From: Gammaproteobacteria bacterium
GTDB lineage: Bacteria; Pseudomonadota; Gammaproteobacteria; Chromatiales; Chromatiaceae
Length of the DNA: 64,000 nucleotides
Reading direction: 5' to 3'
Assembly (NCBI GenBank): GCA_021773975.1
Contig: JAJFJN010000041.1
Coordinates: forward strand, 1-64,000
A program made the translations under genes and the position numbers. Each line of letters begins with the position of its first letter. Positions within the stretch are counted from its first letter, which is position 1. The notes beneath the pieces were generated by a model that saw nothing but the letters and a program-made list of their open reading frames with translations, did no database searches and was not told the origin of the DNA. Positions 9,673-13,181 of the stretch are shown one piece after another.

Positions 9673-11580
9673 TCAATCCTCTTTCTCGTAGTAGGTATAG
9701 CCCTGCATGCTGGCATTGAATGTTTTGATCATCTGCTGCCGGTCACGGGCGGTGATGCGACCCTCTTTGACCGCCCGTTCTGCAGTATTACGGTAACGCA
9801 GCTGCATCTCTTTAGGGTGATATTCCACATAGCTCAGGACATCAGCAATGGTGTCACCATGGATCTCTTTGGCAAAGTCGAAGCTGCCATCGCTATTAAG
9901 GCGCACGCTGACCACATTGGTATCCCCAAACAGGTTGTGCAAATCTCCCAATGTCTCCTGATAGGCACCCACCAGAAAAACCCCTAGGTAATACTCCTCT
10001 CCCACCTTAAGTGGATGCAGCGGCAGCGTCTGGGCAACCTGATGCCCATCAATAAACCGGTCGATCTTGCCATCACAATCACAGGTGATATCGGCAATCA
10101 CTGCCTGTCGAGTTGGCTCTTCATTCAACCGGTGAATCGGCATAATAGGAAACAACTGGTCGATAGCCCAGATATCCGGTAGTGACTGAAACAGGCTGAA
10201 GTTACCGTAGTAGATATCTGCCAGTGAGAGCTTCAGCCCCTCCAGATCCTGTGGTGTATGCTCCATATCATTGAGCAGATCTTTAATGCGATGCAGGGCA
10301 TCAAAGAAGCGATTTTCTGCAATGGATTGCTCTCGCAGGTTAACCTGCCCACGCTTGAACAGCTCACGCACCTCATCGCGGTAGTAGTGTGCATCGTTAT
10401 AACACTCCTGCACCCGGTTGGGCGTCAGGTAGCCTTTAATCTCACGCAGCTTGATCAGCAGTGGATGCTCATCAGCCGTAGGTTCCGGCAGATTGGTTGG
10501 CTCGAAGGTGGTAGTTTCAAGGATGTTGAACAGCAGCACCGAGGTATAGGCCACAGTAGCCCGCCCCGACTCCGTAATAATGGTCGGGTGAGGGATGTTA
10601 TATTCATCCAGCGTATGCTTCAGGGTGTCGACCAAATCCTCGCAGTACTCATCAAGGCTGTAGTTGCGGCTCTGATCATCATTGTTTTGGGCACCGGTAT
10701 AATCCACAGCCAGCCCACCACCCAGATCGATATGGGATAGCGCTGCCCCCTCCTTCACCAGATCCGCATAGTAGCGGCAGGCCTCAACCACGCCGTTACG
10801 TATCTCCTGAATATTGGGGATTTGTGAACCCAGGTGACAATGCAGCAGTTGCAGGCAATGCAGCATATCCTCCTGCTTCAGCGTATCCACAATATCAATC
10901 AGCTGTGTTGCACTGAGGCCAAAGACACTGCGATCACTGCTAGTAGGCTTCCAATGGCCACTCACCTTGGTGGTCATCTTGATCCGAACGCCAATGGTGG
11001 GCTCGATATTCAGCACCTTGCTTCGTTCAATGATGATCGGCAGCTCTGTTGGCGTTTCAATCACAAAGAAGCAACGAAAGCCCAATTTGATCGCCTGTAG
11101 CCCCAGCTCGATGAACTCTTGATCCTTATAGCCATTGCAGATGATCAAGCTTCCCGGCTCCTCCAACGTAGAGAGTGCCGCAATCATCTCTGGTTTACTG
11201 CCCACCTCGAAACCATGCTGGTAACGTGCGCCAAAGGCGGCAATCTCCTCAATAATCTGCGCCTGCTGATTAACCTTAATGGGATAAACGCCACGGTATT
11301 GGCCCTGGTAGCCAAGCATCTTAATCGATCTACGAAAAGCCTCATTCAGGCGCATGATCTGGGCATCAAGGATATTTTCGATACGCAGCAGAACCGGCAT
11401 CTGCAAGTCACGTTCAACCATACCTTCTACAATATCGAGTAGTGCAACCTCGGTGTTTAATGTGTTGGCCGTGACTTTGCCATCTGTAGAGAGGCCAAAA
11501 TAGCTATTGCCCCAGCGCTTGATACCATAAAGTTCTGAAGATTGTTCTGTGTCCCAGTGGGAATGGTCTTGCTGATTCAA
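9673..11580 (-). CDS. speA: biosynthetic arginine decarboxylase
   Basis: PLP enzyme that decarboxylates arginine to agmatine, the entry step for putrescine and spermidine. The 635-residue protein is the long biosynthetic SpeA type. The PLP lysine is K102 in VYPIKVNQQ, and the barrel segment HLGSQIPNI and SHIDLGGGLAVDY follow. The C-terminal domain holds the substrate and dimer region, with CDCDGKIDRF. The start is a TTG preceded at 11 nt by AGGAG; no ATG or GTG lies nearby in frame. It is the first gene of the polyamine operon. About 217 bp upstream of its start lies the MITE-like element, so its promoter must lie in or beyond the 11581-11797 spacer. Confidence 0.94.
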   Translation of the reverse strand: MNQQDHSHWDTEQSSELYGIKRWGNSYFGLSTDGKVTANTLNTEVALLDIVEGMVERDLQMPVLLRIENILDAQIMRLNEAFRRSIKMLGYQGQYRGVYPIKVNQQAQIIEEIAAFGARYQHGFEVGSKPEMIAALSTLEEPGSLIICNGYKDQEFIELGLQAIKLGFRCFFVIETPTELPIIIERSKVLNIEPTIGVRIKMTTKVSGHWKPTSSDRSVFGLSATQLIDIVDTLKQEDMLHCLQLLHCHLGSQIPNIQEIRNGVVEACRYYADLVKEGAALSHIDLGGGLAVDYTGAQNNDDQSRNYSLDEYCEDLVDTLKHTLDEYNIPHPTIITESGRATVAYTSVLLFNILETTTFEPTNLPEPTADEHPLLIKLREIKGYLTPNRVQECYNDAHYYRDEVRELFKRGQVNLREQSIAENRFFDALHRIKDLLNDMEHTPQDLEGLKLSLADIYYGNFSLFQSLPDIWAIDQLFPIMPIHRLNEEPTRQAVIADITCDCDGKIDRFIDGHQVAQTLPLHPLKVGEEYYLGVFLVGAYQETLGDLHNLFGDTNVVSVRLNSDGSFDFAKEIHGDTIADVLSYVEYHPKEMQLRYRNTAERAVKEGRITARDRQQMIKTFNASMQGYTYYEKED

Positions 11581-11797
11581 ATTAGGTCTTACTCCTGGGA
11601 CAACATCGAGTCAATCGTGATCTGATACTAAAGAACGGCAGAGTCCGATCTTTGGGTAGTATCAAAGGGTGTATAATTCTGACTTAGTTTTAGGCTGAAA
11701 TCTATAATGTTTTAACATAAGCCTAACTAAAGGGTCTCTGCTGTTGATTCCTATGCCTCAGCTAATATGACCATAACAAGCAAATAGCCTATAACAT
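11581..11797. other. spacer between speA and the MITE-like element
   Basis: AT-rich spacer that should carry the speA promoter on the minus strand. I saw no strong -35/-10 pair in that orientation. A TATAAT at 11672-11677 is on the wrong strand for speA. A long imperfect inverted repeat (11685-11729) is its main structure. Confidence 0.5.
11685..11729. repeat. long imperfect inverted repeat upstream of speA
   Basis: The outer arms are TAGTT-TT-AGGCT (11685-11696) and AGCCTAACTA (11720-11729). The centre is the palindrome ATGTTTTAACAT (11707-11718). It could be a cruciform, an operator, or the relic of an older short element. It is not GC-rich and has no T-run, so a terminator role is weak. 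Confidence 0.4.
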
Positions 11798-11820
11798 GTG
11801 ATTAGGCACTTTAGACAGGT
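11798..11820. repeat. left terminal inverted repeat of the MITE-like element
   Basis: Begins GTGATTAGGCAC and continues to ACAGGT. It is a perfect complement of the right arm. The next outer base pair (11797 T, 11962 A) also matches by chance of the AACAT duplication. Confidence 0.85.
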
Positions 11821-11938
11821 AAGTAACAGGATATGAGTAAATACAGGTCACATGAATGGTAAATTTGTCCTGAAAGTCAAGCGAACTCATGATTTTATTA
11901 GGGGGCTATCCCGTTTTCCAGGAGCTAAAAAAGCCCTA

Positions 11939-11961
11939 ACCTGTCTAAAGTGCCTAATCAC
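11939..11961. repeat. right terminal inverted repeat of the MITE-like element
   Basis: Begins ACCTGTCTAAAG and ends CTAATCAC. It contains the current TGA stop codon of the minus-strand gene sdaA (11960-11958). Confidence 0.85.
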
Positions 11962-13181
11962 AACATATCTTTATCGCTTTGTTGCTCTGTTATGCGCTTT
12001 TTATAGATCATCGCCAAGCCTCCTTTTGACGTCTCTTTATAGGGCTGTCGTAATGCAAGCCCTGTCTCTAACAATACAGCTACAGCATCATCAAAAGAGA
12101 TACTGTGGTGCCCATCCGATAGCAACGCAAGATTGGCACAGTGCATGGCTCGCGCAGCACCGTGGGCATTACGCTCGATGCAGGGAATCTGAACCAACCC
12201 ATCCACCGGATCACAAGTCAGACCAAAATGGTGTTCCAACCCCATCTCAGCAGCATATTCAATCTGATGACGGCTACCACCCAGCAGCTGGGTAGCCGCA
12301 GCGGCTGCCATGGCACTGGCGGTTCCCACCTCACCCTGGCAGCCAATATAGGCACCCGAGATAGAGGCATTGTGTTTGACTACATTACCAAACAACCCGG
12401 CAGTGGCCAGTGCATTAATCATATCCTGCTCAGAGCACTGTAGCTTCTGCTGCAACTCATAAAGCACGGCGGGTAGCACACCACTGGAGCCACAGGTTGG
12501 CGCCGTAACTACCTCTTTTCCACAGGCATTCTCTTCAGCAACCGCGTAAGCAAAGGCTGCCAATCGCGCATCACTTTGATAATCTGGTTCAAGAATTTTA
12601 CTTTTAGATAAATAATTGTGTGCCTTACGCTGCAAATCCAAACCACCAGGGATTACGCCCTCTGCCTCTAGCCCTCGGGCTACTGCAGCTGTCATGGTCT
12701 TCCAAACATTCTGTAAAAAGGGCTGAAATAGATCTCCTTCCAACCGATCTGCATAGCCCCAAAAGCTCTCTCCATTTGCCTCACAGCAGCTCATTATCTC
12801 TGACAGATTTTTTTCTGGATAGGTATCAACTGCATCCTTATCTGATAACAGAGCACCACCACCGGTGCTGTATTCATAGATCGACTCAATCACCTTTGCC
12901 TGCTGATCAACGGCTTCAAGCTGCATGCCATTGGGATGATCAGGGAGGGTCTGTGCCATATTCCAGACCAGCTCAAACCTATAGCCCGCAAACACCTGAC
13001 CTATCGCCACATCTGTCAGATGCCCACGTCCCGTCGCAGCCAAAGTGCCATACAGGGTTACACGAAATGCTGAAGCCTCTGGGTGCTTCTGTAAAAACTG
13101 ATGAGCTGCCCGTTGCGGTGCCATCGTATGTGAGCTGGAAGGACCCGCACCCATTCGATACAACTGTCGCACTGTTCTCAT
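11958..13181 (-). CDS. sdaA: L-serine dehydratase (iron-sulfur, single chain)
   Basis: Deaminates L-serine to pyruvate and ammonia using an oxygen-sensitive [4Fe-4S] cluster. The N-terminal domain shows MGAGPSSSHTMAP. The C-terminal domain has TAPTCGSSGVLPAV, GCQGEVG and the CDPVDGLVQIPC segment with cluster cysteines. At 407 aa it is shorter than the 454-aa Escherichia coli enzyme, with a more compact first domain. The start is ATG preceded by GGAG. The 3' end has been rebuilt by the MITE-like insertion: the last base of the final Leu codon and the whole TGA stop belong to the element. The gene is divergent from uvrD with an 84-bp gap and is apparently monocistronic. Confidence 0.92.
   Translation of the reverse strand: MRTVRQLYRMGAGPSSSHTMAPQRAAHQFLQKHPEASAFRVTLYGTLAATGRGHLTDVAIGQVFAGYRFELVWNMAQTLPDHPNGMQLEAVDQQAKVIESIYEYSTGGGALLSDKDAVDTYPEKNLSEIMSCCEANGESFWGYADRLEGDLFQPFLQNVWKTMTAAVARGLEAEGVIPGGLDLQRKAHNYLSKSKILEPDYQSDARLAAFAYAVAEENACGKEVVTAPTCGSSGVLPAVLYELQQKLQCSEQDMINALATAGLFGNVVKHNASISGAYIGCQGEVGTASAMAAAAATQLLGGSRHQIEYAAEMGLEHHFGLTCDPVDGLVQIPCIERNAHGAARAMHCANLALLSDGHHSISFDDAVAVLLETGLALRQPYKETSKGGLAMIYKKRITEQQSDKDML

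Follow-up and report, generated by a model that had tools for sequence, protein, structure and literature searches.

The window analysed here, a 64-kb stretch of DNA (64,000 nucleotides), carries on its minus strand the gene sdaA (11958..13181), which encodes an L-serine dehydratase of 407 aa with SDH_beta and SDH_alpha domains, and, as the next gene downstream on the same strand, a speA-like arginine decarboxylase gene (9673..11580). In the 377-bp gap between the two lies an element of 166 bp, TGTGATTAGG...CCTAATCACA (11797..11962), whose extent is drawn from its inverted repeat and from the boundary of four related elements, and exceeds that given in the first-pass annotation (11798-11961) by a terminal T and a terminal A. 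The 23-bp perfect inverted repeats described there are exact in both arms, with GTGATTAGGCACTTTAGACAGGT at 11798-11820 and its reverse complement at 11939-11961; extended outward and inward, the arms span 27 nt each (left, 11797..11823, plus strand; right, 11936..11962, minus strand), are complementary at 26/27 positions (96%) and exceed in length every other inverted repeat of the window at spacings of up to 1.5 kb. Short, free of a transposase and bounded by terminal inverted repeats, the element has in these respects the build of a MITE. Besides the end of sdaA, only one reading frame of at least 80 aa enters it, on the plus strand, and continues antisense to sdaA. The stop codon of sdaA lies inside the element: the gene ends ...GAT ATG TTG TGA, and the last two bases of the Leu codon (TG) together with the TGA stop come from the right terminal inverted repeat.

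The gene that ends in this element is of a short type, nearest to those of Kiritimatiellales and Deltaproteobacteria. Its closest homologue in the genome collection, from Kiritimatiellales, is 61% identical and too distant for an empty-site reading, and the homologues at or below this identity come mostly from Desulfuromonas-like, Bacteroidota and similar lineages. No detectable relative of sdaA was found in the five congeners searched (G001-G005), and the matches within the bacterial family are of a different type (42-45%). Because its nearest homologues belong to distant lineages, sdaA was probably acquired horizontally from outside, a judgement based on homologue proximity rather than on a tree. 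The congener G001 is collinear with the window from 13246 onward (uvrD 88%, TRAP protein 92%), and the sdaA-speA block is not at the collinear place in this genome, which was sampled contig by contig. The break in synteny with G001 falls 20 bp before the uvrD start (window 13246; L275:10438), at a distance of 1.3 kb from the element; the block not found at that place comprises sucrose synthase, amylosucrase, speB, carboxynorspermidine genes, speA and sdaA, and a sigma factor and serine/threonine kinase pair stands there instead.

Copies and relatives of the element

The interior of the element is single-copy: no full-length second copy was found in its own genome (113 contigs), in 92 relatives or in the 210-genome family. 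Its 22-base end TGTGATTAGGCACTTTAGACAG occurs exactly three times in its own genome, in both arms and at C58:1-22, the latter at a contig edge about 130 bp before an unrelated gene, with one side only visible. Contig C58 begins exactly inside the element's end (G000:C58:1-22). Such a start inside a transposon end would fit a longer repeat left unresolved by the assembly, and the parent of the element, an insertion sequence missing from the assembly, may lie at this site.

More distant relatives are recovered through the outer end. A scan of the own genome for TSTGATTAGGC, with one mismatch allowed, yields two inverted pairs, at C1:56662-56820 (L171:1163-1321; 159 bp) and on C31 (L172:1272-1415; 144 bp), which are 97% identical over 131 bp, have ends TCTGATTATGC and are flanked by the 8-bp duplications ACTTAGCA and TGTTAAAC. 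We note these two MITEs, whose ends read TCTGATTATGCAGTTAGCTCATCC and whose 8-bp duplications are clean, as apparently undescribed. Among the 210 genomes of the family, element matches are confined to the own genome and to G114 and G030, both of another genus. G114 carries a 139-bp element (C109, L147:1498-1636) with the 8-bp duplication ACTTAGGA, whose left arm, TGATTAGGCACTTTAGACAG, agrees with the sdaA-end element in 20/20 bases, as well as a second, incomplete copy that meets a contig edge; G030 has its element (C185) at another locus, with 84% identity to that of G114 and the 8-bp duplication CTCCAAGG. The right arm of the G114 element on C109 is of the other end type (GTTAGCTCATCC), unlike its left arm, and from the look of its arms this MITE is possibly a hybrid of two end classes.

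The sdaA-end element shares its outer 8-13 bases, with one mismatch, with the elements on C1, C31 and in G030. The group made up of these three and the C109 element of G114 resembles it in the outer end TSTGATTA.GC, in a length of 139-159 bp and in belonging to the same genome or family. It differs in its 8-bp duplications, which the sdaA-end element lacks, in an unrelated interior, and in the inner part of the terminal inverted repeat, mostly GTTAGCTCATCC in the group and CTTTAGACAGGT at sdaA. The relatives of the sdaA-end element can thus be shown to be insertions, and the group that they form is sparsely distributed. The first-pass annotation had called it a MITE-like mobile element and had held that a single copy only would speak against this. 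By that test the outcome is mixed, although the mobile-element reading itself is supported. The count is one full copy, one end (C58:1-22) and the non-identical relatives C1 and C31: the interior is indeed single-copy, but a second terminal inverted repeat recurs at an unrelated locus, and the related family has duplicated targets.

Several further matches were rejected. The 369 genomes searched across the class gave no close match and only one with 3 mismatches, in G571, which has no inverted partner in the 500 bases around it; the exact 18-mer of the element end is absent from the genome collection. A 29-base match in G022 is without an element-type end, and the near-matches in G186, G118, G163, G188, G206, G027 and G035 have no element-type inverted partner, those of G186 and G035 lying within coding genes. 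In viral contigs, four exact-end matches represent one phage lineage, lie inside a dUTPase-like gene and have no inverted partner, and two matches to the related end come from a single lineage, likewise with no inverted partner; plasmids gave no meaningful match.

Next to the rve-domain loci in the element's genome, no parent transposase with matching ends was found, nor were such ends found in plasmids, phages or viral contigs. Insertion sequences of the IS3/IS481 type have ends of the form TGT...ACA and a short duplication; a parent of this type did not turn up, and the relatives, with their 8-bp duplications, make one less likely. Since the genome is in 113 contigs, a parental insertion sequence may be unassembled.

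Target duplication and the former end of sdaA

The pentamer AACAT stands on either side of the inner 164 bp, at 11793..11797 and at 11962..11966; with the terminal T and A assigned to the element, only ACA (11794-11796 and 11963-11965) is left outside it. Flanks 164 bp apart match over 5 bp at 0.10% of random positions and over 3 bp at 1.7%. Both flanks can be read in four related elements, and in every one an exact 8-bp duplication lies just outside T...A (TCTGATTA...TAATCAGA). Because these elements run T...A, the terminal T and A at sdaA are more plausibly counted with the inverted repeat, and by the boundary of the relatives the duplication more likely shrinks from AACAT to the 3-bp ACA. 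The 5-bp duplication of the first-pass annotation is therefore exact on both sides as described, but two of its bases are likely the element's own and the relatives duplicate 8 bp. No 8-bp duplication of the kind seen in the TSTGATTA group is found at the sdaA-end element, whose flanks CTATAACA and ACATATCT share only ACA. Terminal bases of an inverted repeat that are counted as target duplication can in this way counterfeit a perfectly silent insertion.

What could the end of sdaA have been before the insertion? The flanks leave two nearly equally likely readings, a subfamily with a short duplication and an 8-bp duplication lost on one side. According to the latter, which we place just short of an even chance, the element duplicated 8 bp on insertion and one flank was subsequently lost by deletion or by recombination between copies, the ACA match being a coincidence. 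It draws on the 8-bp duplications of 4/4 related elements with two readable flanks and on the rearranged state of the region, where collinearity with G001 stops shortly before uvrD, 1.3 kb away. Loss of the duplication is also common in MITEAba12 of Acinetobacter, in which it is kept in 36 of 90 copies (40%), so that most copies are without it (PMC6382973). Such a history, however, requires a further event and has to accept a match with a chance level of 1.7%; arms so nearly perfect point to a recent insertion, and the flank at C58 has no reciprocal match to either flank in the window. Had one flank been lost, the old sdaA ending may have been other than ATG TTA TAG.

Alternatively, a MITE with a 3- or 5-bp duplication (ACA or AACAT) entered ATG TTA TAG and rebuilt it as ATG TTG TGA, leaving the protein unchanged. 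We regard this history as a serious but tentative candidate, with rather less than an even chance. Removing the element and one AACAT does turn the end of sdaA into ...GAT ATG TTA TAG, so the arithmetic of the first-pass annotation is correct; AACAT is exact on both sides at a chance level of 0.1%, and the C58 flank in the same register reads ACCAT, likewise A..T. The reading would hold, and the proposed empty site would be right, if the element represented a separate short-duplication subfamily. Against it stand the G114 element, with its end identical in 20/20 bases, and three others sharing the outer 8-13 bases, all of which duplicate 8 bp and keep T...A inside the element; moreover, the search for a congener that has an sdaA relative, and with it a readable empty site, found none. 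As the true former allele, ATG TTA TAG is accordingly not borne out: the genomes searched contain no sdaA empty site, and the 8-bp duplication is missing.

The exactness of the present ending carries little weight in either case. The C-termini of SdaA homologues scatter between about residues 392 and 430 on the scale of the query, and comparison with them places the last 11 SdaA residues beyond the conserved core. As the end of SdaA is not conserved, a change of a few residues would be tolerated, and a precise Met-Leu-stop does not call for any explanation of its own. The remark in the first-pass annotation that few insertions are so neatly silent loses its force among homologues with such variable ends, and that the protein was unchanged is unproven.

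A probable mobile element and the sdaA stop codon

We consider it quite probable that the sequence, which contains the sdaA stop codon, is a trans-mobilised MITE whose insertion at this gene end was tolerated. The inverted repeat, the further copy of its end, the relatives with duplicated targets and the position of the stop codon are shown directly, whereas the mobility of this particular copy, its trans-mobilisation and its neutrality are inferred. The 166 bp would represent a non-autonomous, transposase-free transposable element, moved in trans by a transposase recognising ends of the type TSTGATTAGGCACTTTAGACAG. Its target would have been the 3' end of sdaA or the bases directly beyond it, in a gene without a relative in the congeners searched, and the TGA and TAG near its outer tip would have made the sdaA frame stop two codons after ...KD. 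The insertion would be tolerated because the exact end of SdaA is not conserved.

Comparable elements are known from other bacteria. MITEAba12, non-coding and 113 bp long, has inverted ends and lacks a transposase; it contains stop codons in all six frames and, in one copy fused to the 3' end of a CDS, supplies its stop codon (PMC6382973). It resembles the sdaA-end element in lacking a transposase, in its inverted ends and in having a copy that provides the stop of a coding sequence. The two differ in that the duplications of MITEAba12 measure 9 bp, its ends 16 bp, and its parent, ISAba12, is known (PMC6382973), whereas the element at sdaA has ends of 23-27 bp, a related group with 8-bp duplications, no parent that could be found and a very low copy number. 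Bacterial MITEs such as Correia/NEMIS, ERIC and RUP measure 100-200 bp, have inverted ends and form strong RNA stem-loops; they are mostly intergenic and sometimes fused to reading frames (PMC2229807). The sdaA-end element is like them in these general features, but only one full copy of it is present here. MITE ends that give stops or fused reading frames are thus already known (PMC6382973, PMC2229807), and the sdaA-end element, a MITE-like insertion where a gene ends, is nothing out of the ordinary.

The position of the element between two same-strand genes and its strong predicted folding as RNA on both strands (-64.4 and -64.9 kcal/mol, z -7.6 and -7.0) would also suit a hairpin of fixed regulatory function, acting between sdaA and speA as a terminator or in RNA processing, instead of a mobile element. 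We hold this to be very unlikely: any transcribed MITE with long arms folds in such a way, no terminator-like site was found at the element and an Rfam search of it returned no known RNA family, while its end recurs at an unrelated locus and the related elements carry target duplications. The element may possibly affect the sdaA-speA transcript. The further suggestion of the first-pass annotation, that the ends are adapted to terminate genes, is extremely improbable, and equally so that they were selected for multi-frame stops and let the element spread by harmless replacement of stop codons: although stop triplets near the tip in frames 1 and 3 (offsets 6 and 2) bring 2/3 frames to a stop within 9 nt, as in only 2.4% of random window segments, they sit in the common end TSTGATTAGG present in most of the element group, the C1 and C31 copies (TCTGATTATGC, TATGC) stop early in one frame only, and the other elements are intergenic, away from gene ends.

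The MITE at the end of sdaA is, in this respect, a neat accident at a place where the protein tolerates any ending, and not a gene-ending device. The locus provides a clean example of a transposon tip supplying the stop codon of a host gene, and its relatives document a small, apparently undescribed group of MITEs in one bacterial family. The biological consequence of the insertion is probably nil.
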